DNA of 23,877 bases from a virus. Positions 3,144 to 16,881 of this stretch are shown here, piece by piece. Below the pieces are notes generated by a model. It saw nothing but the letters and a program-made list of their open reading frames with translations. It had not been told where the DNA came from and made no database searches. The translations under genes were made by a program, and so were the position numbers. Location of the stretch: the IMG/VR virus record IMGVR_UViG_3300032224_000389, positions 1-23,877 of that record. One strand, 5' to 3'. How positions within the stretch are numbered: the stretch's first letter is position 1; each line of letters opens with the position of its first letter.

Positions 3144-3147
3144 ATTG

Positions 3148-3173
3148 ATTGGCGAGGGTAACACCTCGCCAAT
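3148..3173 (+). terminator. Rho-independent terminator-like hairpin
   Basis: Positions 3148-3157 (ATTGGCGAGG) and 3164-3173 (CCTCGCCAAT) are perfect reverse complements around the loop GTAACA. The stem is GC-rich in its core. The downstream tail (ATTATTAATT) is AT-rich but lacks a clean T run, so termination may be partial. It starts 5 bases after the stop of the KxGG gene. Confidence 0.75.
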
Positions 3174-3191
3174 TATTAATTCGGAGATTTT

Positions 3192-3473: not shown

Positions 3474-3475
3474 TC

Positions 3476-4012
3476 ATGCCATTGATCAAAAGCAAATCCA
3501 AGGAAGCGTTTGGTAAGAATGTCGCTGCTGAATTAAGGGCTGGAAAGCCTCAAAAACAAGCAGTGGCAATTGCTTACGCAACTAAACGTGCTGCTCCTAA
3601 AAAAGATGGCGGTGGATTGTACGCAAACATCCACGCTAAGCAAGAACGAATTGCACATGGCTCTGGCGAGCGTATGCGTAAAGTCGGTAGCAAAGGTGCG
3701 CCAACTAAACAAGCGTTTATCGACGCTGCAAAAACCGCTAAGAAGTCTGGCGGTGGAGTATCATTAAGTGTCGGTAGAGGAGAAAAACTTTCTACCGAAC
3801 AAGGTGCAGGGCTAACTGCCAAAGGCAGAGAAAAAGCGAACAGAGCGACGGGAAGTCACTTACAAGCGCCAGCCCCAAACCCAAAAACTAAAAAAGACGA
3901 AGGTCGTAAAAAGTCATTCTGCGCTAGAATGAGCGGTGTTGTTAAGAAATCAACAGGAGATGCACCAAGAGCTAAAGCATCTCTGAAACGATGGAACTGC
4001 CCAGGATGGTGA
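3476..4012 (+). CDS. Basic multi-module phage protein (DUF6321-like C-terminus)
   Basis: The start at ATG 3476 is preferred over TTG 3464 because MPLIKSKSKEAFGKNV is the usual beginning of this family and the ATG falls 2 bases after the upstream stop. The 178-aa product is highly basic and looks like three joined short modules: residues 1-40 (FGKNVAAELRAGKPQKQAVAIA), residues 46-92 (GLYANIHAKQERIAHGSGERM, GAPTKQAFIDAAKTAKK), and residues 93-178 (VGRGEKLSTEQGAGLTAKGRE, RKKSFCARMSGV, ending LKRWNCPGW). The last two resemble DUF-class domains found in phages; I would name DUF6321 for the final one, from memory. Two conserved cysteines (149 and 175) stand in otherwise Lys-rich sequence. Nucleic-acid contact is plausible but unproven. 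Confidence 0.7.
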   Translation: MPLIKSKSKEAFGKNVAAELRAGKPQKQAVAIAYATKRAAPKKDGGGLYANIHAKQERIAHGSGERMRKVGSKGAPTKQAFIDAAKTAKKSGGGVSLSVGRGEKLSTEQGAGLTAKGREKANRATGSHLQAPAPNPKTKKDEGRKKSFCARMSGVVKKSTGDAPRAKASLKRWNCPGW

Positions 4013-4013
4013 A

Positions 4014-5072
4014 ATGAGTACTAGCGGAACAGTCGGTCAAACAGTCGTTACAGTTCAGAATCTAATTGATTCTGGAGCAAGACGTGCAGGCAAACTCGCT
4101 GAGGAATTAACCAACGAGCAAGTCGCTGCGTCTAAACAATCTTTATACTATGTTCTTTCAAACTTGGTAAATATCGGTATTCAATACTGGTGCATTAACA
4201 AAGTTATCGTCGGTTTGATTCCTGATAAACAGTTTTATTACTTGCCTGTTGGCACTGTTGATGTGCTTAATGCCAATTACCGCACTGTCACTCCTGTAAC
4301 TACAGGTGCTTATAGTTCTTCTGGTAACACTGCGAATGCATTTAACGGCACTGGCGATGCAACTTGTTTGCTAACGACAAATACAGGCTACATTGGCATT
4401 AACAATGGCTCTGGAAACGCTGTATACATTGCTACTGTTGGTATTTTACCAGCTGTTAGTGGCTCTGTAACAATGGAAATTCAAGCTTCTTCAGACGGAT
4501 CTACATGGACAACCATCGTAGCTCCTGGTCCAACAACTTGGGTCGCTGGTGAGTGGATTTACTACGATATGCCGACTTCAGACACTCAGCCATTTTGGCG
4601 AGTTAAACAATCTGCTGGCGTGAATATGGGTTTCCGTCAGGTCGTTTTTGGAACAATGCCGTTGGCAATTAATATGGCTCGTATGAATCGTGATGATTAT
4701 TCAAGCCTGCCGAATAGAAATTTTCAGGCTTTGCGCCCATTACAGTATTGGTTTAACAGAACAATTCCGCAACCAAACATGGAATTGTGGCCAGTTCCTA
4801 ACTCCATCCAACCTCAACTCGAACTTTGGGTAAGTCGTCAAGTTCAAGATGTTGGTGAACTTAGTGGAGAAATTGAAATACCACAACGCTGGTATTTGGC
4901 AATTCAAAATATGCTTGCGCATCAAATGGCAATGGAACTTCCTGGAGTCGAAGCAGGTCGTATTACCTATTGTGAACAGCAAGCAGAAAAGTATTGGTTC
5001 CAAGCAGAGCAAGAAGAACGAGATCGCTCCCCGATCTACTATGCTCCAAACATTAGTTATTACACGAGGTAA
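4014..5072 (+). CDS. Head-tail adaptor-like protein (P22 gp4-like) with inserted beta-sandwich domain
   Basis: A 352-aa protein. Residues 1-95 begin with VTVQNLIDSGARRAGKLAEELTNEQ and a helical stretch followed by strands, and residues 218-352 resume with PLQYWFNRTI, MELWPVPN, a long C-terminal helix around IPQRWYLAIQNMLAHQMAMELP and CEQQAEKYWFQAEQEERDRSP. This split helix-strand-helix arrangement fits podophage tail accessory or adaptor proteins such as P22 gp4. Residues about 95-217 form an extra Thr/Ser/Gly-rich beta domain (SVTMEIQASSDGSTWTTI, WIYYDMP, PFWRVKQ), which looks like a discoidin or galactose-binding sandwich. The start is 1 base after the previous stop. The role as connector is inferred from layout and remembered family features. 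Confidence 0.65.
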   Translation: MSTSGTVGQTVVTVQNLIDSGARRAGKLAEELTNEQVAASKQSLYYVLSNLVNIGIQYWCINKVIVGLIPDKQFYYLPVGTVDVLNANYRTVTPVTTGAYSSSGNTANAFNGTGDATCLLTTNTGYIGINNGSGNAVYIATVGILPAVSGSVTMEIQASSDGSTWTTIVAPGPTTWVAGEWIYYDMPTSDTQPFWRVKQSAGVNMGFRQVVFGTMPLAINMARMNRDDYSSLPNRNFQALRPLQYWFNRTIPQPNMELWPVPNSIQPQLELWVSRQVQDVGELSGEIEIPQRWYLAIQNMLAHQMAMELPGVEAGRITYCEQQAEKYWFQAEQEERDRSPIYYAPNISYYTR

Positions 5073-5074
5073 GA

Positions 5075-5446
5075 ATGCCAGTTTGGTTAGATACTCTCGG
5101 GAATACTGTTTTATCGATTGCCATCTGCGACAGATGCAAGATGAAACGTGCTTATTCCGATATTCGACCAGACGGAAACATTCCAGGAATCCGAGTTTGT
5201 GGCAATGGTTGTTCTGATAACTTTGACCCTTATCGTTTACCTGCTCGGCAATCTGAAAGAATTAGTATTCGTTTTCCTCGCCCAGACGCTAATGTCGCTG
5301 AGCAGCATGATGCAATTACTACCGATCCGAATATTGCGAATGAACCAACACCATTCGACCTCACTGGGACTCCTGGTGAATGGGGTATTGCTCCTGAAAC
5401 TTCCGAAGATGATATCGACGGAAATCTCGATAATCTTAGCCCTTAA
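5075..5446 (+). CDS. Small four-cysteine (zinc-ribbon-like) phage protein
   Basis: A 123-aa protein starting 2 bases after the adaptor stop codon. Cys18-x2-Cys21 (CDRCKMKRAY) and Cys42-x3-Cys46 (VCGNGCSD) could form a zinc-binding knuckle pair. After it comes DPYRLPARQSERISIRFPRP, which I recall as a conserved phrase in phage proteins next to adaptor genes. The C-terminal third is acidic and probably disordered (EDDIDGNLDNLSP). It sits between the connector gene and the large fibre gene, so a virion assembly or minor structural role is likely; nothing in the sequence shows an enzymatic activity. Confidence 0.65.
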   Translation: MPVWLDTLGNTVLSIAICDRCKMKRAYSDIRPDGNIPGIRVCGNGCSDNFDPYRLPARQSERISIRFPRPDANVAEQHDAITTDPNIANEPTPFDLTGTPGEWGIAPETSEDDIDGNLDNLSP

Positions 5447-5457
5447 AAGAAATTAAC

Positions 5458-8400
5458 ATGGCAAATATTCGAATTTCACAGCTTCCAACAGCACCAGATC
5501 CAATTAGCGGTGCTGAGCTGGTTCCGATTGTTCAAAATGGACAGACTGTGCAAACGACTGTTAGTGCAATTACTAACAGCCCAAGTCAGACTCAAACCTT
5601 TTTAACGATCACTCAAGAATCAACACTGCCGAATTCACGTTTCATCGGTGGTGGTCTTGGCATTGGCACTTCCGATGCTGGTGCACAGGGATTGTTTAGC
5701 CTGTTCTTGAATGGTACTTCTGCAAGCCTCGAAAACGCTGCTACAGGCATTATCGTTAAGTCGGCAGTGAATACGGTAGTTAATCGCTCGATCGCAGTCG
5801 GTACAGCTGGTTTAAGCGTTGCAAATGGCGACGGTATTAATGGAAACCCTACACTTTCACTAACTAATCTTGCTTTGTCAATTGCTACGTTAACTGGCAA
5901 TGGCATGGTTAGTTTGGTTGGTGGTTCATATTTCCAGAATGTCACGCTGACAGGATCTACAAACCAGATCAGTATTGCAAATCCGAACGGAGGAAGCAAT
6001 CCAACCTTTAGCATTGCGGATAACCCAACGATTCCTGGGGTCGCTGGTATGGTTGTGCCTTCTGGCACGACTGGTCAAAGAGCAGCTGTTCCGACCAATG
6101 GTCAAATGCGTTACAACACAACTAATTCTCGTTTCGAGTTTTATGAAGGTGGTTCTTGGGCTACGATCGGTACAGGTGACGGAACAGTTACGGAAGTATT
6201 CAATGTCGTAAACCAAACTTCTGTAATCAATGGAACAACGACCCCGACTGTTGGTTTAGCTAATAATCCTGTTCTTCCAGGATTGTCAGCTGTCACACTT
6301 CCTAAAGGTGCAACATCTGACCGTACTGGTTCACCAACTAGTGGTATGATTCGCTACAACACCCAATCTAATGTTTTTGAAGGTTATACAGATGTTGGTT
6401 GGAGTCAGTTTTCAACTGCTGGTGGTGTTACAAGTTTTAATGGTGGAACAACAGGTTTAACTCCGAATATTGCGACCACTGGTGCTATTACATTAGGTGG
6501 AATTTTAGTTGTTTCAAATGGTGGTACTGGAGCTGCAACGCTAACAGGTTATGTGAAAGGTAATGGCACTGCAGCCATGACTGCCAGTGCAACAATCCCT
6601 ACGACTGACCTTAGCGGAACTATCTCAAATGCGCAATTGGCAAATAGCTCTGTTACTTACAACGGAGTTACAGTCGCTTTAGGTGCTAGTGGGACGATTA
6701 CAGCTAGTACAACAAGCACTTTGACGATCGGCACTGGTCTTTTAGGTGGAAGTTTCAATGGATCTTCTCCTGTAACGATCACCATCGATAGCACTGTCGT
6801 AACGCTAACTGGCACGCAGACTTTAACGAATAAAACGATCAGCGGTTCAAACAATACTTTAACGAACATTGGTAATAGTTCATTAACAAATAGCTCGATC
6901 ACGATTAACGGATCAAGCGTGAGTTTGGGTGGAAGTATTACTGTTACCGCCACAGCTACAAATGCTTTGACCATAGGCACGGGCTTGACAGGAACGAGCT
7001 ATAACGGGTCTTCTCCTGTCACAATTGCTATTGATAGCACTGTTGCTACTTTAACAGGTTCGCAGACTTTGACGAACAAATCAATGTCTGGCTCTTCAAA
7101 TACATTTACGAATATCCCCAATTCTGCGCTTACCAACAGTTCATTGACGATAGGTTCCACTGCTATAAGTCTTGGTGGAACTTCAACTACGCTCGCTGGG
7201 TTGGTTTCTGTAACACTTACGCAAGATCCTGTTGCTGACTTACAAGCTGCTACAAAACAATACGTTGACAATTTAGTTTCGACAGGTTTGGCTTTTCACG
7301 CACCTGTTCAAGCAGCAACAACTCAGAGTTTAGCTGCACAGACAGGTGGAACTGTAACTTACAACGCTCCTGGACCAGAAGGTGTCGGTGCAACAATAAC
7401 GCTTTCTGTCCCTTTATTGATATTAGACGGATACACACTTTTAAACACAAACCGCATTTTAGTTAAAAACGAAGTCAATCAAGCATATAATGGTATTTAT
7501 ACTTGGGCGACTGGCGGAACAGTTTTAACTCGTTCTACTGACACGAATACGTATGGTTCAGGAGTTAATCAACTTAGTCAGAATGATTATTTCTTTGTCC
7601 AAAACGGCACAGTTAATAAGGGTTCGTCTTTCGTTGTTACGACTGTTGGTGTAATTAACTTTACGACCACTCCGATTACTTTTGCTGAGTTTAGCAATTC
7701 ACAAGTTTATTCTGCGGGAACAGGTTTAACCCTAACAGGTACTACTTTTAGCATCACTAACACTGGTGTTACGAATGGTTCTTACGGAACTGCGTCTTCT
7801 GTTCCGACTATTGCGGTAAATGCGCAAGGTCAAATTACTAGCGCAAGTAACACTTCGATAGCAATCAATGCAAACCAAGTTACTTCGGGTATTTTGGCTA
7901 CAACAGTCGGTGGTACTGGACTTTCATCATTCACTTCTGGGGGTGCTTTATATGCTACTTCTACATCCGCTCTTACTTCTGGGACTTTGCCTATTACCGC
8001 TGGTGGTACTGGAATTACTGCCTTTGGGACAGGTGTTCAGACCGCTCTGGGGCAAAATGTAACAGGCTCTGGTGGAATTGTTCTTTCAACAAGTCCAACT
8101 TTAGTTACACCAGCACTCGGAACACCAAGTTCCGTCGTGCTCACGAATGCTACAGGGCTACCACTAACTACTGGTGTAACAGGCACTTTACCAATTGCTA
8201 ATGGTGGTACTGGTCAAACTACAGCTTCCGCTGCATTTAATGCACTTTCACCGATTACCACTGCTGGTGATTTGATCATTGGTAATGGAGTAAATAGCGC
8301 AACTCGTCTAGGCATTGGTGCGAATGGTTACTTGCTCACTTCTAACGGCACGACTGCAGTTTGGACAGCTGCTCCTGCCACTGGTGTTACTTCGATCACT

Positions 8401-8763
8401 TTTGGTACGACTGGTTTAACACCCAACACTGCGACTACAGGTGCAGTAACAGTCGCTGGAACCTTGGTCGTGAGCAATGGTGGTACTGGTGTAACAACGC
8501 TAACAGGTCTTGCTTACGGAAACGGAACAAGTGCATTTACCGCTGCAAGTGCTGCTCAAGTTGTTGCAGTAATTGGTTCGACTGCCGTCACGAATGCAAC
8601 CAATGCAGCAAACGTGACTGTGACCACTGGTTCAGCAACTACGAACTATTTAGCATTTGTGACCGCCACGACTGGTAATTTACCTGTTTTGACAAACACT
8701 GGATTGACTTATAATTCTTCCACTAACGCAATTACTGGTGGAATCTCTGGAGGAACATTCTAA
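5458..8763 (+). CDS. Large modular tail fibre / appendage protein
   Basis: An 1101-aa Thr/Ser/Gly/Asn-rich protein. The N-terminus (MANIRISQLPTAPDPISGAELVPIVQNG) is typical of the virion-attachment end of phage fibres. Two modules of the form GTTGQRAAVPTNGQMRYNT...FEFYEGGSWATIG occur near residues 197-238 and 278-320. An 82-aa unit is repeated in tandem from residue 396. A domain with LQAATKQYVDNLVSTGL and LVKNEVNQAYNGIYTW lies at about 585-760. Several NGGTG-containing segments follow, including the widespread LVTPALGTPSSVVLTNATG and NGGTGQTTASAAFNALSP modules. It ends in GGISGGTF. Host-receptor contact is expected of such fibres; the specific receptor cannot be read from sequence. No enzymatic depolymerase motif was recognised. 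Confidence 0.85.
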   Translation: MANIRISQLPTAPDPISGAELVPIVQNGQTVQTTVSAITNSPSQTQTFLTITQESTLPNSRFIGGGLGIGTSDAGAQGLFSLFLNGTSASLENAATGIIVKSAVNTVVNRSIAVGTAGLSVANGDGINGNPTLSLTNLALSIATLTGNGMVSLVGGSYFQNVTLTGSTNQISIANPNGGSNPTFSIADNPTIPGVAGMVVPSGTTGQRAAVPTNGQMRYNTTNSRFEFYEGGSWATIGTGDGTVTEVFNVVNQTSVINGTTTPTVGLANNPVLPGLSAVTLPKGATSDRTGSPTSGMIRYNTQSNVFEGYTDVGWSQFSTAGGVTSFNGGTTGLTPNIATTGAITLGGILVVSNGGTGAATLTGYVKGNGTAAMTASATIPTTDLSGTISNAQLANSSVTYNGVTVALGASGTITASTTSTLTIGTGLLGGSFNGSSPVTITIDSTVVTLTGTQTLTNKTISGSNNTLTNIGNSSLTNSSITINGSSVSLGGSITVTATATNALTIGTGLTGTSYNGSSPVTIAIDSTVATLTGSQTLTNKSMSGSSNTFTNIPNSALTNSSLTIGSTAISLGGTSTTLAGLVSVTLTQDPVADLQAATKQYVDNLVSTGLAFHAPVQAATTQSLAAQTGGTVTYNAPGPEGVGATITLSVPLLILDGYTLLNTNRILVKNEVNQAYNGIYTWATGGTVLTRSTDTNTYGSGVNQLSQNDYFFVQNGTVNKGSSFVVTTVGVINFTTTPITFAEFSNSQVYSAGTGLTLTGTTFSITNTGVTNGSYGTASSVPTIAVNAQGQITSASNTSIAINANQVTSGILATTVGGTGLSSFTSGGALYATSTSALTSGTLPITAGGTGITAFGTGVQTALGQNVTGSGGIVLSTSPTLVTPALGTPSSVVLTNATGLPLTTGVTGTLPIANGGTGQTTASAAFNALSPITTAGDLIIGNGVNSATRLGIGANGYLLTSNGTTAVWTAAPATGVTSITFGTTGLTPNTATTGAVTVAGTLVVSNGGTGVTTLTGLAYGNGTSAFTAASAAQVVAVIGSTAVTNATNAANVTVTTGSATTNYLAFVTATTGNLPVLTNTGLTYNSSTNAITGGISGGTF
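6643..7194 (+). repeat. Tandem 246-bp (82-aa) repeats inside the large fibre gene
   Basis: Two full units, 6643-6888 and 6889-7134, are exactly 246 bases long and in frame; a truncated third runs to about 7194. At protein level each unit begins NSS(V/I)T, has TIGTGL, then NGSSPVTI, IDSTV, TLTG and QTLTNK, and ends NS(S/A)LT. The units are clearly related but diverged, with many synonymous differences. They probably form repeated shaft segments of the fibre. Confidence 0.9.
8746..8760 (+). repeat. Shared 15-bp gene-end sequence containing the next gene's Shine-Dalgarno
   Basis: TCTGGAGGAACATTC is identical to 16861-16875. Here it encodes the last residues (SGGTF) of the large fibre, and its GGAGG lies 10 bases before the ATG at 8764. 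It therefore codes protein and also serves as the ribosome site for the downstream fibre gene. Confidence 0.8.
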
Positions 8764-9627
8764 ATGGCAGCTACAGGCTACACCCCGATAAAACTTTATT
8801 ACAGTACGACTGCTGCTGCAGTCCCTGTAAACACCAACCTTGCGGATGGTGAATTAGCGATTAACATCACTGATGGAAAACTTTATTACAAAGACAATTC
8901 AGGTGTTGTTAAGCTGCTTGCTAGCAATGCGACTGTTGCTCCTGTAACGACAATTACCTTTGGAAGCACTGGTTTAACACCTTCGACAGCCACTAGCGGT
9001 GCAGTTACAGTTGCTGGTACTTTGGTCGTTTCCAATGGTGGAACTGGTCTTACATCATTAACTGCTGGTCGTATTCCTTATGGAGCTGGAACTAGCGCAT
9101 TCGGTAACTCTGCTAATTTATTCTGGGACAGCTCGAATAATCGACTCGGTGTGAACACTGCGACTCCTGCTGTTACCGCTGCATTCATCGGCACTGACGC
9201 AATTCAACTCCCAGTCGGTAGCACAGGTCAACAGCCAGCTGGAGCTGCTGGTATGTTGCGATTTAACAACTCTTCTTTCCAATTCGAAGGATACAACGGA
9301 ACAGTTTGGGGGACGATTGGTGGCGGTGCAGCTCTTAGCAATGACACTTCAACAGCATCTTTCGAATACCCAATTTTCGCAGCTGCGACTTCTGGAAACC
9401 CAACAACAGTTTATACTTCGAATGCCAAGTATTTGTATAAACCAAGCACTGGTGAATTGCAAGCCTATGAGTTAAATGCAACAAACGGATTGGTATTGAA
9501 TAATGCAACAGTTTCAGCAAGTTACAGTATTGCGAGTGGTACGAATGCGATGTCTGTTGGACCAGTTAGTGTAGCTTCAGGACAAACAGTAACAGTCGCC
9601 AGCGGAAATCGTTGGGTCGTTTTATAA
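8764..9627 (+). CDS. Second tail fibre / appendage protein
   Basis: A 287-aa protein starting directly after the stop of the large fibre (TAAATG). The N-terminus GYTPIKLYYSTTAAAVP followed by DGELAINITDGKLYYKDNSGVV is a common fibre anchor domain. Residues about 60-103 repeat a segment also present near the end of the upstream gene (STGLTPSTATSGAVTVAG, LVVSNGGTG). Residues about 148-183 (QLPVGSTGQQPAGAAGMLRF, FEGYNGTVWGTIG) are a third copy of the fibre module seen twice in the upstream gene. The C-terminus (SVGPVSVASGQTVTVASGNR, ending WVVL) is a recurrent fibre ending. No chaperone gene follows. Likely a side fibre or a fibre segment that joins the large one. Confidence 0.8.
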   Translation: MAATGYTPIKLYYSTTAAAVPVNTNLADGELAINITDGKLYYKDNSGVVKLLASNATVAPVTTITFGSTGLTPSTATSGAVTVAGTLVVSNGGTGLTSLTAGRIPYGAGTSAFGNSANLFWDSSNNRLGVNTATPAVTAAFIGTDAIQLPVGSTGQQPAGAAGMLRFNNSSFQFEGYNGTVWGTIGGGAALSNDTSTASFEYPIFAAATSGNPTTVYTSNAKYLYKPSTGELQAYELNATNGLVLNNATVSASYSIASGTNAMSVGPVSVASGQTVTVASGNRWVVL

Positions 9628-9638
9628 AAGGATAAAAA

Positions 9639-10211
9639 ATGAGTTCAGCAATTTTACAAGGCGGTGCAACTGGGACAGGATCAGTAACGATTCTTGCGCC
9701 AAACACGAATAGCAATCAGATTTTGACTTTGCCAGATGCGACTGCGACCATTGTCACAAACAAAACAGCTGGTACTGTTTTACAAGTTGTTCAAAATACT
9801 GTAACAACAAGCACATCAACAACTTCTGTAAATACAGCAATTGATACTCTCCTTACTGCAACTATCACACCAACTTCTGCAACGAGTAAAATTTTGGTGT
9901 TAGTCTCTCAAAATATGCAAATTTATATTCAAAATAGTCAAGGGCAACAGGGTTTGGTACAAATTTATAGAGGTAGTACTTTTTTAACTACCTATGGTGA
10001 GGCTATGTTCACGCAATTTGCAACTGGAAACAATGGTTATCAAGACAGCCAACAGCAACTTTTTGTTCAATATCTAGACAGTCCTGCAACAACAAGTTCT
10101 TTAACCTATAAGACTCAAGGTTATTTTACAAATAATAGCGCCAACGCTGGAATTCGTTTTCAGTTTAATGGGGCACAGTCCTCAATGACTTTATTGGAGA
10201 TAGCAGCATGA
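9639..10211 (+). CDS. Tail fibre, cassette 1
   Basis: A 190-aa protein with an AAAGGAT ribosome site. The N-terminus (SSAILQGGATGTGSVTILAP) is a short attachment segment; LLQVV-type sequence then begins a C-terminal beta domain with ITPTSATSKILVLVSQ, QYLDSPATTSSLTYKTQG and the terminal MTLLEIAA. The same C-terminal domain recurs in the fibre at 10541-11068, so the two are paralogues with different tips. Its stop overlaps the start of a tail-assembly chaperone gene (ATGA), making a fibre + chaperone cassette. Fibre-tip or receptor-binding function is inferred from this pairing. Confidence 0.8.
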   Translation: MSSAILQGGATGTGSVTILAPNTNSNQILTLPDATATIVTNKTAGTVLQVVQNTVTTSTSTTSVNTAIDTLLTATITPTSATSKILVLVSQNMQIYIQNSQGQQGLVQIYRGSTFLTTYGEAMFTQFATGNNGYQDSQQQLFVQYLDSPATTSSLTYKTQGYFTNNSANAGIRFQFNGAQSSMTLLEIAA

Positions 10212-10217
10212 TTGATT
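10195..10217 (+). repeat. Cassette joint, copy 1 (fibre end / chaperone start)
   Basis: This 23-base stretch matches 11052-11074 at 22 positions; only position 10202 (A) differs from 11059 (T). It spans the codons for the fibre ending EIAA, a GGAGAT ribosome site, the ATGA overlap and the first residues (MID) of the chaperone. It may act as a homology joint for cassette exchange. Confidence 0.75.
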
Positions 10218-10534
10218 TTAATTCTAGTGAATTTAATATTGCACTTTATAAGTTATACCCTCAAATTGTTAAAACAATTGCTGAAGTTGGATACGACGCA
10301 AACGATAATGTTGTTAATTATGATTCAGCTGCAGTTCAAGCTGAAGCTGATAAATTAGCTTGCAGGTCTCAAGCCATTGCACTCCTCGCTGCAACAGATT
10401 GGGCGGTGCTTCCTGATGTCGGTCTTGCTAACCAAGCTGATTTTGTATTTTACAGACTAAACCTTAGAAATTTAGTCCGCAATCCAGTAGCGAACCCTGT
10501 GTTCGGGACTGAACCAACACCTGTTTGGAGTTAA
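10208..10534 (+). CDS. Tail fibre assembly chaperone-like protein (Phage_tail_APC family), cassette 1
   Basis: A 108-aa protein translationally coupled to the fibre before it. The C-terminal half carries the family pattern: KLACRSQAIALLAATDWAVL, then ANQADFVFYRLNLRNLV, and NPVANPV...PTPVWS. This matches the short phage tail assembly chaperone domain (PF16778 type, from memory) that accompanies fibre genes and helps them fold or attach. Compared with the second copy (11065-11433), the domain is conserved but the N-terminal 55 residues are unrelated, which suggests that the N-terminus is matched to its own fibre. GGAG near its stop codon serves the next gene. Confidence 0.75.
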   Translation: MIDFNSSEFNIALYKLYPQIVKTIAEVGYDANDNVVNYDSAAVQAEADKLACRSQAIALLAATDWAVLPDVGLANQADFVFYRLNLRNLVRNPVANPVFGTEPTPVWS

Positions 10535-10540
10535 ATAACT

Positions 10541-11068
10541 ATGACAATGATTATTGACGGAACCAATGGCGTCACATTCCCGAACAGTACGATTCAAGCG
10601 AGTGCTGGAACATTATTACAAGTCGTTTCTGCAGCATTGACGAGTACATTTACAACATCTAGCATTTCTTATGTTGATGTTACTGGTCTTACAGTTTCTA
10701 TAACACCCAAATTTTCCACTAGCAAAATTCTCGTAATGTATACAGCACAAACTGCATCAGACCCAGCTCTTGCTGGAACTTTCCTTCGTTTAGTAAGGAA
10801 CTCCACTGCTATTTTTGTTGGTGATGCAGCAGGTTCTAGATCACAGGATACAAACTCAGGTGCTCCCGCAAACATATATGGTTTTTACTTAGGTTGTGGT
10901 CAATACTTAGATTCTCCAGCGACTACTTCAGCTACAACTTATAAAGTACAAATACGTAATAATGGCGGTGCAACTTCATATATAAACAGGTCAGTTGGTG
11001 ATAGAGACACTGCCAACTTTGATCCTCGTTTAGCTTCTTCAATTACAGTTATGGAGATTGCAGCATGA
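10541..11068 (+). CDS. Tail fibre, cassette 2
   Basis: A 175-aa protein. MTMIIDGTNGVTFPNSTIQA is a very common N-terminal attachment segment of phage fibres; a second in-frame ATG at 10547 could also be used. The rest parallels the cassette 1 fibre: LLQVV, ITPKFSTSKILVMY, QYLDSPATTSATTYKVQ and the terminal EIAA. The region between about residues 75 and 120 is the most different and is the likely variable tip. Its stop overlaps the next chaperone start (ATGA), as in cassette 1. Confidence 0.8.
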   Translation: MTMIIDGTNGVTFPNSTIQASAGTLLQVVSAALTSTFTTSSISYVDVTGLTVSITPKFSTSKILVMYTAQTASDPALAGTFLRLVRNSTAIFVGDAAGSRSQDTNSGAPANIYGFYLGCGQYLDSPATTSATTYKVQIRNNGGATSYINRSVGDRDTANFDPRLASSITVMEIAA

Positions 11069-11074
11069 TTGATT
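11052..11074 (+). repeat. Cassette joint, copy 2 (fibre end / chaperone start)
   Basis: Near-identical copy of 10195-10217 (22 of 23 bases). As there, it contains GGAGAT, the fibre terminal EIAA codons and the chaperone start ATGATTGATT. Sequence on both sides diverges sharply after the joint. Confidence 0.75.
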
Positions 11075-11433
11075 ATTCTTTAATTTTGACTACAAATTAC
11101 ATTGACAAACAATGGTCATTGAGTGGCGACTCTTATGATGGGTTAGAATGGTTTTCTGACACGCCAAAACCAACACAAGAAGAATTAGACGCCCTATGGC
11201 CAAGTACTGTTGAAGCTCAAGCGAAAATCGATTGTAAAAATCAAGCAGTTTCAATCCTCAATGCCACTGACTGGACTTCGATTGGTGATGTTGGTAATCC
11301 ACAAATGTCGAATCCTTACCTAGTTAATCAAGCTGCGTTTATCAGCTATCGTAGTCAAATACGTGCATTGGCGGTAAACCCAGTCGAAAACCCAGTGTGG
11401 CCAACCGCACCAACTGAACAATGGAGTTCTTAA
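11065..11433 (+). CDS. Tail fibre assembly chaperone-like protein, cassette 2
   Basis: A 122-aa paralogue of the product of 10208-10534. The shared C-terminal domain has IDCKNQAVSILNATDWTSIG, then NQAAFISYRSQIRALA and NPVENPVWPTAP...QWSS. The N-terminal half (NYIDKQWSLSGDSYDGLEWF) is unlike the first chaperone and contains several tryptophans. It overlaps its fibre gene by ATGA and ends one base before the third fibre's ATG, with GGAGTT close to its stop. A role in folding or mounting the cassette 2 fibre is inferred from the pairing. Confidence 0.75.
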   Translation: MIDYSLILTTNYIDKQWSLSGDSYDGLEWFSDTPKPTQEELDALWPSTVEAQAKIDCKNQAVSILNATDWTSIGDVGNPQMSNPYLVNQAAFISYRSQIRALAVNPVENPVWPTAPTEQWSS

Positions 11434-11434
11434 T

Positions 11435-11842
11435 ATGGCATACGGAACAGTAAACGCAGACGTCATTGGCACAAGTGTTGCCAACTCCTCGCTCGGTGCA
11501 GGGAATGCGTCTAATTTTAAGAATCGCATTATCAATGGGAACATGACTATTGATCAACGGAATGGTGGTGCTAGTACAACCCCTACAGCAGATGGAACAT
11601 ATACATTAGACAGATGGCAAGTATCAATAAGTGCTGCTTCTAAATTTAGTGTACAACAATCATCTACTGCACCAACTGGTTTTATTAACTCAACATTAAT
11701 AACTTCATTGTCTGCATATTCTGTCCCCGCTGGCGGCTATTTTATGTTTAATCAGTTTATAGAGGGTTTAAATGTTGCAGACCTTGGTTGGGGAACTGCC
11801 AATGCTAAAACAGTTACATTGTCTTTTCAGGTTTATTCTTAA
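11435..11842 (+). CDS. Third tail fibre, N-terminal fragment ending at a premature in-frame TAA
   Basis: As it stands, this frame encodes 135 residues. It starts MAYGTVNADVIGTSVANSSL and continues into a carbohydrate-binding-like fibre domain: FKNRIINGNMTIDQRNGG, YTLDRWQVS, FNQFIEGLNVADLGWG, TVTLSFQVYS. It then meets TAA at 11840-11842. The same frame stays open from 11843 to the TAA at 12524-12526 and continues the same domain (LTGTFGGAFQNSAQN...). In relatives that I remember, the phrase reads S(S)LTGTFGG without a break. The product is therefore probably a truncated, non-folding half domain, unless the stop is suppressed. GGAGTT in the upstream gene's last codons is the likely ribosome site. 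Confidence 0.8.
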   Translation: MAYGTVNADVIGTSVANSSLGAGNASNFKNRIINGNMTIDQRNGGASTTPTADGTYTLDRWQVSISAASKFSVQQSSTAPTGFINSTLITSLSAYSVPAGGYFMFNQFIEGLNVADLGWGTANAKTVTLSFQVYS

Positions 11843-12526
11843 TTAACAGGAACTTTTGGCGGTGCATTTCAAAATTCGGCACAAAACAGGGCTTACCCAT
11901 TTAGTTACACAATTTCCACGGCAAATACTTGGACTTCAATCAGCGTAACTGTTGCTGGTGATACATCAGGCACTTGGCTTACAACTAATGGTGTTGGAAT
12001 AACTGTTAGATTTGGACTTGGTGTTGGCACAACTTATAGCACTACTGCTGGCGCTTGGACTGCTGGACAATATTTTTCTTCAACAGGCGCAACAAGCGTA
12101 GTAGGAACAAACGGAGCAACATTCTACATAACAGGTGTTCAGCTCGAAGTAGGTAGCTCAGCGACTGGTTTTGAATATCGTAGTATTACAACTGAAACAT
12201 CTTTATGTCAGCGTTACTATTGGAAAACAGTTACATCAACATCCAATAACTTTATTTGTTGGGTATATGCAGCAAATTCAGTTGATGCTTATGGGTATTT
12301 ATATCATCCAGTATTAATGCGAATTGCTCCAACTGCTGTTACATATTCTGGAACTGGCTGGTGGGCTGGCGGTGCAGTTACAAGTATTTCTTCAATATCA
12401 ATAGCAGAAAATGGCACAACATCAACTGTTTTAAGATTTATTAGCACGGGATATAGCTCTAATGTTATATATGGTCTTTTGCCAAATGGTTCTACTGGTT
12501 ATGTAGCTTTTACTGCGGAGTTATAA
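11843..12526 (+). pseudogene. Orphaned C-terminal part of the third tail fibre
   Basis: The frame immediately after the TAA at 11840-11842 encodes 227 further residues with no stop until 12524-12526: LTGTFGGAFQNSAQN, WTSISVTVAGDTSGTWLTTN, FYITGVQLEVGSSATGFEYR, SLCQRYYWKTV, and a Ser/Gly-rich end. ITGVQLExGxxATxFEYR and CQRYY are hallmark phrases of a widespread phage fibre C-terminal domain. An internal ATG at 12317 could give only 69 residues and has no convincing ribosome site. The whole gene would be 363 residues (11435-12526). A single C-to-A change, TCA to TAA, would explain the stop. This reads as a recent nonsense mutation, an off-state, or an assembly error. Confidence 0.8.
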
Positions 12527-12527
12527 A

Positions 12528-12701
12528 ATGTATTACACACTGACAACAACAGGAATTTCTGGTCCACAATACTATATTGTTTTAGACAACGGTGATGGTT
12601 CTTATACCACTTTTGCGGACGACCCAACCAATCCGAACTACCCAGCTTATCAAGCGTGGTTAGATGAAGGGAATGTGCCTCAGCCATTTCCAGGAGTTTA
12701 A
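12528..12701 (+). CDS. Small protein paired with the third fibre
   Basis: A 57-aa frame: MYYTLTTTGISGPQYYIVLD, then NGDGSYTTFADDPTNPNYPA and AWLDEGNVPQPFPGV. It begins 1 base after the stop of the third fibre frame, with GGAG 8 bases upstream inside that frame's last codons. The NPxYxAYQAWLxEGNxPxP ending is a recurrent motif of short phage tail proteins. It lacks the CxxxA...TDW domain of the two chaperones upstream but occupies the same place in its cassette. It may be a minimal fibre-assembly partner. It is intact although its fibre gene is broken. Confidence 0.65.
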   Translation: MYYTLTTTGISGPQYYIVLDNGDGSYTTFADDPTNPNYPAYQAWLDEGNVPQPFPGV

Positions 12702-12739
12702 AGGGTTTTCCAGCTGCCCTTTCAGCTGGTAGTTTTAAA
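12700..12739 (+). terminator. Hairpin with overlapping alternative pairing (possible terminator)
   Basis: CCAGCTG (12710-12716) and CAGCTGG (12723-12729) form a 7-bp stem around CCCTTT. The loop CCCTTT (12717-12722) is itself complementary to AAAGGG at 12700-12705, so two mutually exclusive helices or a strained pseudoknot are possible. The tail TAGTTTT is only weakly U-rich. It separates the fibre locus from the lysis cassette. Confidence 0.55.
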
Positions 12740-12750
12740 AGGAAAAAGAG

Positions 12751-12894
12751 ATGGACAAAATCACTTTGAGCACACAGTTGTTAAATGCAATCCTCGGATA
12801 TTTGGGCAAACGTCCATACGAAGAGACTTTTCAACTGATTGACGCTGTACAAAAAGAAGCAAAAGAACAATTAGAAAAACCTAAGGAAGAGTAA
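12751..12894 (+). CDS. Small conserved phage protein upstream of lysis genes
   Basis: A 47-aa product, MDKITLSTQLLNAILGYLGK followed by RPYEETFQLIDAVQKEAKEQ and a charged end. AAAAGGAAAAAGAG provides the ribosome site. The pattern LSTQLLNAILxYLxxRPYxExFQLI is one I recall from many phages, usually next to lysis or tail genes, always without a known function. It is predicted to be mostly helical with no membrane segment. It ends 2 bases before the next gene, so it is the first gene of the lysis operon. Confidence 0.7.
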   Translation: MDKITLSTQLLNAILGYLGKRPYEETFQLIDAVQKEAKEQLEKPKEE

Positions 12895-12896
12895 TT

Positions 12897-13130
12897 ATGG
12901 ATTGGCAGTCGGTTATCAATTTTGGCGGTGCTGCGTTACTTTCTGCTTTTGGCTGGTTCTGCCGTCAATTGTGGGAGATGGTGCAAGCACTCAAAGACGA
13001 TATAAAAAGAATTGAAGTCGAACTGCCAACCAACTACGTAAGAAAAGACGAGATCAACGCAAGGTTCGATCGTCTTGAAGTAATGATTTCTAAAATGTCT
13101 GACAAACTTGATGGTAAAGCAGACAAATGA
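12897..13130 (+). CDS. Single-TM coiled-coil membrane protein of the lysis cassette
   Basis: A 77-aa protein. Residues 7-25 (INFGGAALLSAFGWFCRQL) form one hydrophobic segment. Residues 26-75 are charged and helical (MVQALKDDIKRIEVELPTNY, RKDEINARFDRLEVMISKMS, DKLDGKADK) and should form a coiled coil. The arrangement is similar to haemolysin XhlA-like or holin-partner proteins, but sequence identity to XhlA is not evident. It overlaps the next gene by ATGA, so the two are probably made together. A holin accessory or antiholin role is a guess from context. Confidence 0.7.
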   Translation: MDWQSVINFGGAALLSAFGWFCRQLWEMVQALKDDIKRIEVELPTNYVRKDEINARFDRLEVMISKMSDKLDGKADK

Positions 13131-13330
13131 AACTCAACATGAAACGGACAATGAAATCGAGGACGATGTGGTTCTCGCTTTTGCTCGTTATTGTGGGTTC
13201 ACTGTATGACAATTTTTCATATTTACAAAACATTATCGATCCAAAATACTACGGATCAATCCTCGTAACGATCGGAATTATCTGTGCAGTTTTAAGATTT
13301 TATACAACACAGCCACTGGAGGATGAATGA
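13127..13330 (+). CDS. Two-TM holin candidate
   Basis: A 67-aa protein starting in the ATGA overlap with the previous gene. A basic N-terminus (MKLNMKRTMKSRT) is followed by a hydrophobic helix (about residues 14-31, MWFSLLLVIVGSLYDNF), a short loop with IDPKYYGS, a second helix (about 44-59, ILVTIGIICAVLRFY) and a short acidic tail. This size and topology fit a class II holin, and the phrase TMWFSLLL...YYG...VLRxxTTQPL is one I recall from phage holin-like families. A second two-TM protein at 14291 is a rival for the role. Start choice is fixed by the coupling; the later ATGs at 13139 and 13151 are alternatives. Confidence 0.65.
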   Translation: MKLNMKRTMKSRTMWFSLLLVIVGSLYDNFSYLQNIIDPKYYGSILVTIGIICAVLRFYTTQPLEDE

Positions 13331-13878
13331 GCTACATACTGTATCCGTTTCTCGTTGTTATTGACCTAATCGGGACTGTTCTTACATTCCCTTTAGCCTT
13401 CCTCATTGGCATTCTTTACAGCACGCAAATCGGCTGGTGTAATAACGGCACTGTTTGGGAATCTGGTCCACGTTTATATTCTTGGTTGTCATGGTTTCAA
13501 ACTCCTGACAATTCCCTTGATGGCGACCAAACTTTCCGTGCCAGCCACAATCCATGCTGGTGGTCCAAAGTTCAATGGCTATGGCGCAATCCGTTTTATG
13601 GTTTCGCAGTGAAGTATTTACATGGCACTGATGGCATGTCTTACTCTGGCGACTTAACTTGCAATGAACAAAATCCTGGCCACCTGCTCGTCAAAGGTCA
13701 AGGTCTTTTTCAATACGTGTTGTTTAAACACATTGGTGGTAAATGTTTATATTTGAATTTTGGTTGGAATATTCGTGCACTCGTTGACCCAGCGTATATC
13801 AATGATCCGAACAATGCTGCGTTTATAGCCAATTATCCAGCCACCTTTGCGTTTTCTCCAAGGTTGGTGAGCTACTGA
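13327..13878 (+). CDS. DUF7338-like membrane-anchored phage protein
   Basis: A 183-aa protein coupled to the holin candidate by ATGA. Residues 4-31 are strongly hydrophobic and form one long or two short membrane segments. The soluble part contains LSWFQTPDNSLDGDQTF, a Trp-rich stretch (PCWWSKVQWLWRNPFYGF), HLLVKGQG and YLNFGWNIRAL. The TPDNSLDGD and WLxRNPxYGF patterns match a conserved family of unknown function that commonly sits beside phage lysis genes (DUF7338, from memory). No catalytic motif is evident. Because it is bracketed by a holin candidate and the spanin genes, a lysis or envelope-linked role is plausible. Confidence 0.7.
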   Translation: MSYILYPFLVVIDLIGTVLTFPLAFLIGILYSTQIGWCNNGTVWESGPRLYSWLSWFQTPDNSLDGDQTFRASHNPCWWSKVQWLWRNPFYGFAVKYLHGTDGMSYSGDLTCNEQNPGHLLVKGQGLFQYVLFKHIGGKCLYLNFGWNIRALVDPAYINDPNNAAFIANYPATFAFSPRLVSY

Positions 13879-14294
13879 TGTTCGGATTGAATCCATTCGT
13901 CCTGTATGGTGCTATCGCTGCCGTTGTGATTGCTTTTGGTAGTGGTGCGACGATTGGTTACAAATGGGAAAAGTCGAATTTCGACAATTACAAGTTAGAG
14001 CAAGAACGCAATACAAGAATTAAAGAGCAAGAACACCAAGCAGCAACAGACGAAATAAGGAAAGCAAAAGATGCTAAAATCGCTGATATTAACAACAAGC
14101 TCATTGACGCTGTTAGCGAGTTGTGGAAGCGCACCAGTCGTCCAGCAGAAGTATCCGACAATGGACAAAGTTGCTCTGGGCGAAACCTTTACTCCGAGGA
14201 TGCAATCTTTCTTATTAGGGAAGCTGCCAGAGCAGACGTCATCCGAACAGCCCTCGAAGCCTGTTACAACCAATATGAACAAGTAACAAAATGA
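13878..14294 (+). CDS. Rz-like inner-membrane spanin
   Basis: A 138-aa protein with one N-terminal membrane helix (about residues 8-27, VLYGAIAAVVIAFGSGATIG) and then a charged coiled-coil region (about 30-85: EKSNFDNYKLEQERNTRIKE, AKIADINNKLIDAVSELWKR). The C-terminal globular part has GRNLYSEDAIFLIREAARAD and VIRTALEACYNQYE. This topology is that of i-spanins, which link to an outer-membrane lipoprotein and fuse the two membranes at the end of lysis. The partner, an Rz1-like lipoprotein, lies wholly within this gene in another frame. Start shares one base with the previous stop (TGATG). Cys99 and Cys129 could form disulphides. Confidence 0.8.
   Translation: MFGLNPFVLYGAIAAVVIAFGSGATIGYKWEKSNFDNYKLEQERNTRIKEQEHQAATDEIRKAKDAKIADINNKLIDAVSELWKRTSRPAEVSDNGQSCSGRNLYSEDAIFLIREAARADVIRTALEACYNQYEQVTK
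14071..14286 (+). CDS. Rz1-like outer-membrane spanin lipoprotein, embedded in the Rz-like gene
   Basis: A 71-aa frame, +1 relative to the enclosing Rz-like gene. The N-terminus MLKSLILTTSSLTLLASC has a basic residue, a hydrophobic core and a lipobox (L15-A16-S17-C18), so signal peptidase II would cleave before Cys18. The mature 54 residues include six prolines (P22, P29, P42, P53, P61, P64), as expected for o-spanins. AAGGAAA at 14057-14063 gives a ribosome site 10 bases from the ATG. Complete nesting of Rz1 within Rz is known from phages such as lambda. Small nested genes like this are often missed by gene callers. Confidence 0.8.
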   Translation: MLKSLILTTSSLTLLASCGSAPVVQQKYPTMDKVALGETFTPRMQSFLLGKLPEQTSSEQPSKPVTTNMNK

Positions 14295-14512
14295 ACAGAA
14301 CTGAACTAGCCAAACACGTTACCTTAATAGCTTGCTATACGCTTGCAACTACTGTCATGGCTATGGTAGCGGTTTTTGTTATTGGTTTTTTCGATGAAAA
14401 AGTAGAAAACACAAAACTATTCGAAATCGTTGGTCCAGCTTTTCAGACAATCATTGGTGGATTTATTGGTTTGATCACAGGTATCAAAATAGGTGAAGCA
14501 GAAAATGATTAA
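14291..14512 (+). CDS. Second two-TM membrane protein (holin candidate)
   Basis: A 73-aa protein joined to the Rz-like gene by ATGA. Helix one is at about residues 10-33 (VTLIACYTLATTVMAMVAVF), then a charged loop (FDEKVENTKLFE), and helix two at about 45-66 (GPAFQTIIGGFIGLITGI). The loop and FxEIVGPAFQTIIGGFIGLI phrase are shared with many aquatic phage proteins, annotated variously as holin or hypothetical. It overlaps the endolysin start by 8 bases and so is the membrane protein closest to the endolysin. I cannot tell which of the two candidates is the true holin. Confidence 0.65.
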   Translation: MNRTELAKHVTLIACYTLATTVMAMVAVFVIGFFDEKVENTKLFEIVGPAFQTIIGGFIGLITGIKIGEAEND

Positions 14513-15026
14513 CAACTTTACTCAATCTCTCGCTGCACTCCTCGAAGACGAAGGTGGATTCGTAAACAATCCTGCTGATCCAGGAGGAATGACCAATCTT
14601 GGTGTCACTAAAGCTGCTTGGGAAGCGTATGTTGGGCATCCTGTTTCTGAAAAAGATATGCGTGCTTTAACTCCGACAATGGTTACTCCGTTTTACAAAC
14701 AAAAATATTGGGACAGAGTTCGTGGTGATGAGCTACAAGACGGATTGGACTACTGCGTATTCGACGTAGCAGTTAATTCTGGTCCAGGAAGAGCGATCAA
14801 ATTCTTGCAAACAGAATGTGGCGTGCCAGCTGATGGTGGTTTTGGTCCAACGACTTTCGCTGCTGTTTCACAATTTACAGGCGACCCGCTAAAAACATTT
14901 ATCACTGGATATTGCCAAGAACGCTTAAAATTTATGCAAAGTCTTCCAGCTTGGTCAACATTCGGAAAAGGATGGGGTAATCGAGTTGCGAAGGTGGAAA
15001 AAAGAGCATTGGAGATGGTTAAATGA
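14505..15026 (+). CDS. Endolysin, GH108-type (N-acetylmuramidase) with C-terminal PG-binding_3-like region
   Basis: The ATG at 14505 gives 173 residues and has AGGTGA 8 bases upstream; GTG at 14493 is in frame but adds only four residues. The N-terminal region holds the family's catalytic motif, LEDEGGFVNNPADPGGMTNL, with Glu16 as the expected catalytic acid, followed by GVTKAAWEAY. The core has YWDRVRGDEL and DYCVFDVAVNSGPGRAIKFL. The C-terminal third (GVPADGGFGPTTFAAV, CQERLKFMQSLPAW, GWGNRVAKVE) matches the peptidoglycan-binding region that usually pairs with GH108. There is no signal sequence, so release depends on a holin. It overlaps the upstream membrane gene and the downstream adaptor gene. 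Confidence 0.9.
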   Translation: MINNFTQSLAALLEDEGGFVNNPADPGGMTNLGVTKAAWEAYVGHPVSEKDMRALTPTMVTPFYKQKYWDRVRGDELQDGLDYCVFDVAVNSGPGRAIKFLQTECGVPADGGFGPTTFAAVSQFTGDPLKTFITGYCQERLKFMQSLPAWSTFGKGWGNRVAKVEKRALEMVK

Positions 15027-15655
15027 CAGTATCTTTCGTATTAACCTATGATTCGTTGATTACTACTGTCGAGCAATATCTCGAGCGTAACGACCCTGCC
15101 ACTGTTAATCAGATCCCTACTTTTATCACGCTTTGCGAATTTGAAATTGCACAGCAGATCAAAACGCTTGGGCAGATGCAAGTTGTCGAAAGCACGATGC
15201 TAACTGGTAACCCTGTTATTCAAAAACCTGCTAGATGGCGCAAGACGATTTCTTTCAACGTGGTGGTTGACGGTGCTCGTCAGCCTGTTTATTTACGTAA
15301 ATACGAATACATAAAATCTTATGCACCTGATGCTTCTAATACTGGCTTGCCTCTTTATTATGGCGATTACGATTACGAACATTGGATCGTTGGACCAACA
15401 CCTGATCAAGATTACAATTTTGAAGTTCTATTTTATGAGCGCATAGCTCCGTTGTCTTCTGAAAACCAAACAAACTGGCTAACTCAATACGCACCGAATG
15501 CGATGCTTTTCGGCACATTGTTACAAGCTATGCCGTTTTTGAAAAATGACCAAAGACAAATATTTCAGCAGAAATATGATCAAGCTATGGCAATGCTTAA
15601 AACGGAAGATATTACTCGTGTTGGCGATCGCCAAACAATAGCTATCGAAAGTTAA
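15023..15655 (+). CDS. Head-tail adaptor-like protein (SU10 / gp4-type)
   Basis: A 210-aa protein coupled to the endolysin by ATGA. The N-terminal half is helical (LITTVEQYLERND, IPTFITLCEFEIAQQIKTLG), followed by strands with PARWRKTISF, QPVYLRKYEYIKSYAPD, YYGDYDYEHWIVGPTPDQDY and FEVLFYERIAPL. The C-terminal half has LTQYAPNAMLFGTLLQAMPF and a long helix (QQKYDQAMAMLKTED). The order helix, strand insert with GPxP, YxRxxPL, then helix is the pattern of podophage adaptor proteins that sit beneath the portal. It seems a shorter relative of the protein encoded at 4014-5072, lacking the inserted beta domain. Confidence 0.75.
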   Translation: MTVSFVLTYDSLITTVEQYLERNDPATVNQIPTFITLCEFEIAQQIKTLGQMQVVESTMLTGNPVIQKPARWRKTISFNVVVDGARQPVYLRKYEYIKSYAPDASNTGLPLYYGDYDYEHWIVGPTPDQDYNFEVLFYERIAPLSSENQTNWLTQYAPNAMLFGTLLQAMPFLKNDQRQIFQQKYDQAMAMLKTEDITRVGDRQTIAIES

Positions 15656-15657
15656 TT

Positions 15658-16881
15658 ATGACCTCTTATGTAAATCCCTTTACAGGACAAACAATTCAGC
15701 CAAGTCAAGTTGGCTATGAACAGCTGACGATTAGTGTTGATACAATCCTGCAATGGCCAGTGAATGGCAATACTAATGACGTGGTTGCGAATATCATTGA
15801 AGTGACTGCAACGACCACTGGTTTAAACCTTATCATGCCTGCAGCTACGCAAGTTTCTACAGGTCAAAGTGCATTAATTAAAAACATCGGAAGCAATCCA
15901 TTTACAGTCGTAAAATCCGATGGCAGTACGATCATCTCGATTTCTTCCAGCATTGCTGAATACATTTATTTAACAGACAATACAACGATTCCTGGAACAT
16001 GGAATTCTGTTACCTTCGGTGCTGGAACAAGTTCTGCTAATGCTTCTGCGCTGGCTGGTTATGGCTTAACTGCTTTCAGCACAACGCTAAATCAGTCTTA
16101 CAATGTTGTTAATTATTTCTCGAACACAACGCTTACTGCAGCTAATCGAGCTGAATTTGCGGTTTGGGGAAGTGGTGTTGGAACTTTCCAATTAACTAGC
16201 TCTTCCACTCTTGGAAACAATTGGTTCTGCATGATTTCCAATAATGGTTCAGGGATTTTGACCCTGACACCTGATGGAACTGATACAATCAATGGTGATT
16301 CAAATCAGCAGTTGCAACCTACAGAATCTTTAGTGATTGTGTCCAATGGATCTAACGGATTTAATACTTTTGGTTATGGTCGCTCAAATCAATTCGCTTA
16401 CACCCAATTTGCTCAAGTTGTTACAGGTGGAACATTTACTCTTTCAGCAGCGCAAGCGTCGAATACGATTCAAGAATATTCTGGTAATTTAACAAGCAAT
16501 CAAATCGTTATCGTTCCTCCAACAGTTCAGCTTTACACCTTTACCAACAATACGACAGGTTCTTATACTTTCACGATTGGTACTGGTGCAGTCGGGGGTG
16601 CTACTGTAACAATCGCTCAGGGAACTTCTCTTGTTATTATTTGCGATGGAACAAACTGCTACAATGCTGCTTCTGGTTCATCTTCTTCTGTCACTTCTTT
16701 GACGCTTGGTAATGGATCTCTTTCTACTCCGTCTTTAAAATTTATTGGAGATGTAAACACTGGTTTATTTTTACCAGCTTCTCAGCAATTAGGATTTGTG
16801 GTTGCAAACCAATTGGCTGGTTACTTTAATTCTTCTGGTTTTACAGCAACGAATGGTATTTCTGGAGGAACATTCACTTGA
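15658..16881 (+). CDS. Appendage / fibre-like virion protein
   Basis: A 407-aa Thr/Asn/Ser-rich protein starting 2 bases after the adaptor stop codon. The N-terminal part (SYVNPFTGQTIQPSQVGYEQ, LTISVDTILQWPVNGN, VIEVTATTTGLNLIMP) is a conserved block I recall from podophage structural proteins next to gp10-like genes. Middle repeats resemble one another: LIKNIGSNPFTVVKSDG, MISNNGSGILTLTPDGT and FTNNTTGSYTFTIG. The C-terminal segment (SLKFIGDVNTGLFLPASQQL) and ending GISGGTFT match the way the large fibre ends. The last codons carry GGAGG for the next gene. Probably a virion appendage attached to the tail hub. Confidence 0.75.
   Translation: MTSYVNPFTGQTIQPSQVGYEQLTISVDTILQWPVNGNTNDVVANIIEVTATTTGLNLIMPAATQVSTGQSALIKNIGSNPFTVVKSDGSTIISISSSIAEYIYLTDNTTIPGTWNSVTFGAGTSSANASALAGYGLTAFSTTLNQSYNVVNYFSNTTLTAANRAEFAVWGSGVGTFQLTSSSTLGNNWFCMISNNGSGILTLTPDGTDTINGDSNQQLQPTESLVIVSNGSNGFNTFGYGRSNQFAYTQFAQVVTGGTFTLSAAQASNTIQEYSGNLTSNQIVIVPPTVQLYTFTNNTTGSYTFTIGTGAVGGATVTIAQGTSLVIICDGTNCYNAASGSSSSVTSLTLGNGSLSTPSLKFIGDVNTGLFLPASQQLGFVVANQLAGYFNSSGFTATNGISGGTFT
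16861..16880 (+). promoter_or_regulatory. Shared gene-end sequence and Shine-Dalgarno for a TTG start
   Basis: 16861-16875 is identical to 8746-8760 and encodes SGGTF at the end of the appendage protein. GGAGG (16864-16868) is 9 bases before TTG 16878, whose last two bases overlap the TGA stop. This supports TTG as the real start of the gp10-like gene; no other start codon near its N-terminus would retain the family's opening residues. Confidence 0.75.

Follow-up and report, generated by a model that had tools for sequence, protein, structure and literature searches.

What does the region of tandem tail fibre genes in this viral genome do, and how is it exchanged between phages? The window analysed is the whole IMG/VR record IMGVR_UViG_3300032224_000389 (23.9 kb). 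At 9639-12701, it carries three fibre genes in tandem, each followed by a small partner gene (f1/c1, f2/c2 and f3/p3). Our analysis indicated that this region is probably a variable slot that serves host recognition in a tailed phage, and in which three fibre-plus-partner units are exchanged as cassettes and as sub-gene blocks, with the partners serving as chaperones. An earlier note on this DNA had placed two intact units at 9639-10534 and 10541-11433, with an ATGA overlap in each, and a third unit with a different fibre type and a partner of 57 amino acids (aa). The coordinates and overlaps proved to be correct, and the third fibre matched phrog_4492, with its partner at 12528-12701. The features are as follows.

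9639-10211, + strand: f1, short tail fibre, 190 aa, with an N-terminal anchor and a predicted TNF-like head (alignment with f2 and 22 relatives)
10208-10534, + strand: c1, partner of f1, 108 aa, with an N-module of type A (about 11-45) and C-module alpha (about 50-108) (ATGA overlap; phrog_4912)
10541-11068, + strand: f2, short tail fibre, 175 aa, with the anchor MTMIIDGTNG and a predicted TNF-like head (phrog_6942 tail fiber, E 1.5e-16)
11065-11433, + strand: c2, partner of f2, 122 aa, with an XkdW-like N-module (about 1-42) and C-module alpha (about 56-122) (ATGA overlap; Pfam XkdW)
11435-11842, + strand: f3 up to an in-frame TAA, 135 aa (phrog_4492 tail fiber)
11843-12526, + strand: f3 after the TAA, same frame, 227 aa (phrog_4492, E 2.8e-24; homologues are single uninterrupted genes)
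11495-12178, + strand: segment of f3 with 90% identity to a phage lineage that is only distantly related; the anchor and the C-terminal tip are different
12528-12701, + strand: p3, partner of f3, 57 aa, with a motif around NTDYQAYL/WLxEGNxPxP (phmmer relatives lie directly after f3 homologues)
10179-10217, + strand: first copy of direct repeat D2, spanning the f1/c1 junction (39 nucleotides (nt), 82% identical to the second copy)
11036-11074, + strand: second copy of direct repeat D2, spanning the f2/c2 junction (junction consensus kept in relatives with either N-module)
5458-8763, + strand: long fibre
8764-9627, + strand: 287-aa tail fibre-like protein, whose gene closes the conserved left flank (PHROG tail fibre/baseplate matches)
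12751-13878, + strand: conserved right flank with 47-aa, 77-aa, holin and DUF7338 genes (holin PHROG; DUF7338; DNA identity of 77-90% to the nearest relative, starting at 12784)

Exchange of cassettes and of a fibre block

The region was found to be replaced between otherwise similar phages, as in a hypervariable island. The nearest contig, 3300034198_006214, shared 90% DNA identity with the window over 2344-6026 and 77-92% in parts of 12784-15695. Positions 8764-9065 aligned at 70%, after which the homology ended; no DNA common to the two was found across 9065-12784, and the contig holds genes of 1163, 344 and 138 aa in the slot instead. Cassettes also differed among contigs that share the flanking genes (L109, L120, L127, L142 and L152), and other contigs that match the window in the long fibre, the second fibre and the right flank again had different content. 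In the complete genome MW202545, which is distantly related and keeps the gene order, the slot was filled by one 827-aa endosialidase-like gene. Among the contigs with both kinds of unit, the arrangement was f3-head in 13, head-f3 in 9, head-head-f3 in 3 besides the window and head-f3-head in 2. The comparison among related phages that the earlier note had proposed thus revealed that cassette content, number and order vary, and a fixed single-copy order of the six genes was not seen across distant relatives.

Exchange was also observed below the level of the gene. The f3 gene spans 11435-12526 as one 363-codon frame with an in-frame TAA at codon 136 (11840-11842). Its 684-bp block was 90.4% identical to five contigs, rising to 95-98% over 11753-12112, and identity dropped to about 50-58% after 12173 and to less than 75% before 11573. 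The five contigs were mutually identical where they overlapped and therefore represent one lineage. They had no other DNA match with the window, and their endolysin and tail-adaptor homologue were 59% and 30% identical in protein sequence to those of the window. These results indicated that the body of this fibre has moved between distant phages, with different anchors and tips.

The TAA lies inside the shared block, where all five contigs have a serine codon. An alternative genetic code was rejected as its explanation, since c1, c2, f3 and p3 terminate in TAA and the five contigs have a sense codon. The stop raises the possibility that unit 3 is a decaying remnant and that only units 1 and 2 work. 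We consider this a serious alternative, although its chances fall somewhat short of even. In its favour, serine was present in 39 of 42 homologues that have a residue at this position (11840), and the five block-sharing contigs read through it. Against a remnant, the frame is open and conserved on either side of the TAA, p3 is intact, and the block core is 95-98% identical to an intact gene; the last point suggested that the TAA arose recently by a nonsense change or is an error of the consensus.

Fibre heads, partners and their pairing

The f1 and f2 proteins were 34% identical across 179 alignment columns (E 2e-11), and their N-terminal anchors were dissimilar. The earlier note had described fibres that share a C-terminal frame and differ in the middle. 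The middle does differ, and proved hypervariable when f1 and f2 were aligned with 22 relatives; the common frame, however, flanks it on both sides and is not confined to the C-terminus. The note had further read the locus as duplicated and swapped adhesin modules. Swapping was borne out by the differing cassettes of same-flank phages, but duplication within one phage was not shown: with an identity of only 34%, acquisition of f1 and f2 from other phages is equally likely. In summary, the note's observation holds and its interpretation is largely supported.

The structure of f2 was predicted as an AlphaFold2 (AF2) monomer from 24 sequences. The model had eleven strands with a predicted local distance difference test (pLDDT) score of 79.9, and its fold was that of a TNF-like jelly roll. 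The best Foldseek matches in the PDB were the TNF-like lectin PLTL (9ib6/9ib7; E 5e-7 to 1.5e-6; template modelling (TM) score up to 0.76 by target), for which structures with blood-group sugars exist, and other top solved matches were the BC2L-C lectin and the C-terminal domain of Pgp3. The head sequence also matched the C-terminus of orf22 in PDB 9efk (E 7e-20), a protein found in 18 chains of that entry. By analogy with known TNF-like fibres, the heads may act as trimers that touch cell-surface glycan. The same head family was found in P-SSP7, pelagiphages, Methylophilales phages and Limnohabitans phage DC33. The DC33 record (PQ492659.1, L269) is filed under Inoviridae; it is 39 kb long with tail-fibre-like genes, so this taxonomy line looks wrong. 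The f2 anchor MTMIIDGTNG was also joined to very different C-terminal parts in L020, L021 and L022 (at the start of the matched gene), which suggested that anchors shuffle too.

The partners c1 and c2 had been described as chaperones that share a C-terminal domain and differ completely in their N-terminal parts, and this pattern of shared and differing parts was confirmed. They could be aligned in the C-terminal part alone (46% over 76 aa, E 4e-20), with no alignment before residues 41/47. Partner c1 matched phrog_4912 tail fiber assembly (E 1.7e-6), and its homologues in phage Melnitz are annotated as tail assembly chaperone. The AF2 model of c2 was confident (pLDDT 94.5) and mainly helical; no relatives of c2 were matched among sequenced phages. 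The D2 repeats place a short homology at the seam between fibre and partner that could help exchange, and protein constraint at the ATGA overlap probably accounts for much of the junction conservation.

A pairing census was performed on 411 sequences, the window among them, in which heads at the C-terminus of a protein were classed by the next gene. For 168 heads, this was a recognised partner in 117 cases, another gene in 29, another head in 19 and none in 3; a further 4 heads lay at a contig end. Several of the 29 other genes resemble partners that were not modelled. The ATGA overlap was exact in 97 of the 117 head-partner pairs. Among the matches listed, all but a few f3 homologues were followed at -4 to +11 nt by a p3-like gene of 46-90 aa, most with the motif around NTDYQAYL. 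The overlap and the f3/p3 pairing in relatives argue that the arrangement in the window is not due to chance. Glycine-rich fibres in the same slot (L109, 4630-9592; L416, 3925-7767) seem to have partner types of their own, namely a family of 136-138 aa (MSYFA...AADQ) and a protein of 135 aa that carries C-module alpha, and pairing of fibre and partner may thus be a rule in further classes of fibre as well.

Module exchange in the partners

To describe the partners, we used profiles of three N-modules (A, the XkdW-like B, and D) and three C-modules (alpha, beta and gamma). Module D was a distant version of B (hhalign 96%); A and B had no hhalign match to each other, and neither did the three C-modules among themselves (probabilities <0.2%). 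With E <1e-3 required for both halves, the combinations were A-alpha 18, A-beta 9, A-gamma 26, B-alpha 5, B-beta 6, B-gamma 1 and D-alpha 8; heads were de-duplicated by identical sequence alone, and the counts are of sequences and not of independent events. All six combinations of two N-module families with three unrelated C-modules were therefore present.

The N-type of the partner followed the head. On the head tree, it changed 11 times, compared with 19.8 ± 1.05 times in 2000 label shuffles, none of which was as low; the C-type changed 27 times, compared with 35.1 ± 2.4. The contrast of A with B alone was weak in the 70-pair set (10 changes vs 12.0; as few in 130 of the 2000 shuffles), which means that the divergent XkdW-like subtype D contributes some of the N-type signal. 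In a nearest-neighbour test with 99 pairs, in which neighbours above 70% identity were left out, the signal for A vs B was clear. The N-type was predicted from head regions I and III at 0.75 and 0.77 and from the middle at 0.62 (null 0.56-0.57). The C-type was predicted about equally from all three head regions (0.45-0.48; null 0.35), which indicated that the weak N-type result for the middle is not a simple lack of information. These results suggested that the N-half of the partner meets the frame of the head. Our fuller proposal, to which we give an even chance, is that the partners are adaptors made of two parts, either of which can be exchanged: the N-half would be matched to the head frame, the presumed receptor-binding middle would be free to change without a change of partner, and the C-half would be chosen largely independently. 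Less expected than the rest are the exchange of C-modules and the frame-specific coupling; their evidence comes from relatives and not from the window alone; no published account of either was found in a limited literature search.

In the mechanism that we propose, f1 and f2 would each join an anchor at the N-terminus to a TNF-like, lectin-type head at the C-terminus, probably trimeric and glycan-touching by analogy. The ATGA overlap would couple translation of each fibre to that of its own partner, whose variable N-module would fit the head frame while the helical C-module does the rest of folding or assembly. The f3 protein would represent another adhesin type with the near-obligate partner p3, interrupted by a stop in this contig. 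Phages would acquire and lose such units and recombine them with one another, both as complete cassettes and as blocks smaller than a gene, with a presumed effect on host range.

Known systems and remaining alternatives

The partners share two features with Tfa-type chaperones such as Mu Tfa and Pam3 gp25. They are encoded directly downstream of the fibre that they would serve, and the N-terminal domain is variable (c1 and c2 could not be aligned there, and N-modules A and B are unrelated by hhalign). On a conserved helical C-terminal domain the evidence is divided: c1 and c2 have this domain in common and it is helical in the c2 model, but relatives carry three unrelated C-modules. Pam3 is a myocyanophage with tail fibre gp24 and chaperone gp25, which was not detected in virions (PMC9608196). 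As in Pam3, a fibre with a TNF-like domain is followed by a chaperone-type gene with a variable N-terminal domain (fibre-binding in gp25) and a C-terminal domain that is helical in gp25 and predicted to be mainly helical in c2. Unlike in Pam3, the heads show no glycine-rich tip, the C-module is also exchanged across relatives, and c2 lacks a detectable match to solved chains in sequence or fold. The host-recognition module of Alteromonas phages A5/V22 likewise comprises a fibre and a downstream cognate chaperone shared horizontally between distantly related phages (PMC10579305, PMC7289586); it has one such pair in place of tandem units, and its chaperones carry DUF4376, which was not found here. 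Methylophilales phage Melnitz-2 (MZ577096) has an f3-type fibre with a small partner, followed by a TNF-like head and a type A partner with the ATGA overlap, and both partners are annotated as tail assembly chaperone. Unlike the window, it is a 141-kb Kyanoviridae phage with one such head unit and low identity. Metaviromic islands of marine phages are likewise variable and include C1q-like and XkdW genes besides genes for tail fibres and their assembly; they are reported to keep gene number and size (PMC3909814), whereas gene content and number change here. Mobile fibre-plus-chaperone modules, TNF-like fibres with modular chaperones and variable C1q-like/XkdW/fibre-assembly islands have thus already been published (PMC9608196, PMC10579305, PMC7289586, PMC3909814), and the window is a further example of a largely known arrangement.

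Like Mu Tfa or the gp38 adhesins of T2-type fibres, the partners could instead remain at the tip of the fibre and act there as accessory proteins or adhesins. This is a known alternative for downstream fibre partners (PMC7289586), and the partner modules vary strongly, as an exposed tip protein would. We regard it as unlikely: the N-type tracks the head frame and not the divergent middle, as expected of a folding partner, and neither Pam3 gp25 nor V22 gp27 was found in the final structure, the former being undetected in virions (PMC9608196) and the latter not being part of the final fibre (PMC7289586). We conclude that c1 and c2 are most likely intermolecular folding or assembly chaperones of their own fibres.

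A dedicated system, namely a diversity-generating retroelement or DNA inversion, would account for the hypervariable middle of the heads without recombination between phages. It is very improbable here, because the changes are whole-gene and block replacements and no reverse transcriptase or recombinase match was found among the window proteins scanned, although the window is a fragment and the gene could lie elsewhere. Inversion in particular was rejected, since no long inverted repeats were found around the cassettes. That the six genes are fixed, distinct virion components in a conserved order is the least credible explanation; the recurrence of f2-c2-f3-p3 in the same order in L115/L116 agrees with it, but it is contradicted by the other gene sets of the five same-flank contigs and MW202545 and by the varying unit order.

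Several observations weigh against exchangeable units with chaperone partners. No Pfam or NCBIfam family exceeded its cut-off for c1 or c2: c2 scored 24.2 bits against Pfam XkdW (PF09636; E 2.8e-5; curated cut-off 24.6), and c1 scored 17.4 bits against Phage_tail_APC (PF16778; cut-off 26.6). The c2 model had no significant PDB fold match, and no significant PDB sequence match was found either. Homology to a proven chaperone (Tfa, Pam3 gp25) is therefore not established. P-SSP7 and pelagiphage Lederberg have three head-type genes in a row that are not separated by any partner gene, which suggested that a partner is not always needed; in P-SSP7, three matches of the same head family were found, and PSSP7_037-039 resemble the window in being three tandem short fibre genes. 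The f2-c2-f3-p3 block kept in L115/L116 indicated that the order is not random. In addition, unit 3 may be non-functional in this genome owing to the stop in f3.

The clear genes of the window are all on the + strand and, outside the cassette region, include a capsid protein, tail adaptor-type genes, a holin, a spanin, an endolysin and an SU10-type adaptor. No DNA match to the whole window was found among sequenced phages, and a search for prophage relatives found no genome contig encoding a relative of the 4014-5069 protein. The Rz-like spanin gene (13878-14294) contains an open reading frame in another frame (14071-14286) that is lipoprotein-like (LASC lipobox), an apparent embedded Rz/Rz1 pair. 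The DUF7338 gene (PF24027, E 1.4e-25; 13327-13878) lies between the holin and the spanin, and it adjoins a holin-like gene in many otherwise dissimilar contigs. A DUF6321 domain was found at the C-terminus of a 182-aa protein (3464-4012) in the structural region.

Phages escape bacterial surface changes through new fibres, and a new fibre must also fold. The exchange of parts described here would fit the need to keep pace as bacterial surfaces change. The proposed two-part adaptors are testable, given the cultured Melnitz-2 and the large number of related contigs. Should the partner recognise nothing but the constant frame of the head, receptor specificity could drift or be swapped with assembly unbroken, and if both partner halves shuffle, these phages would draw on a combinatorial parts list.

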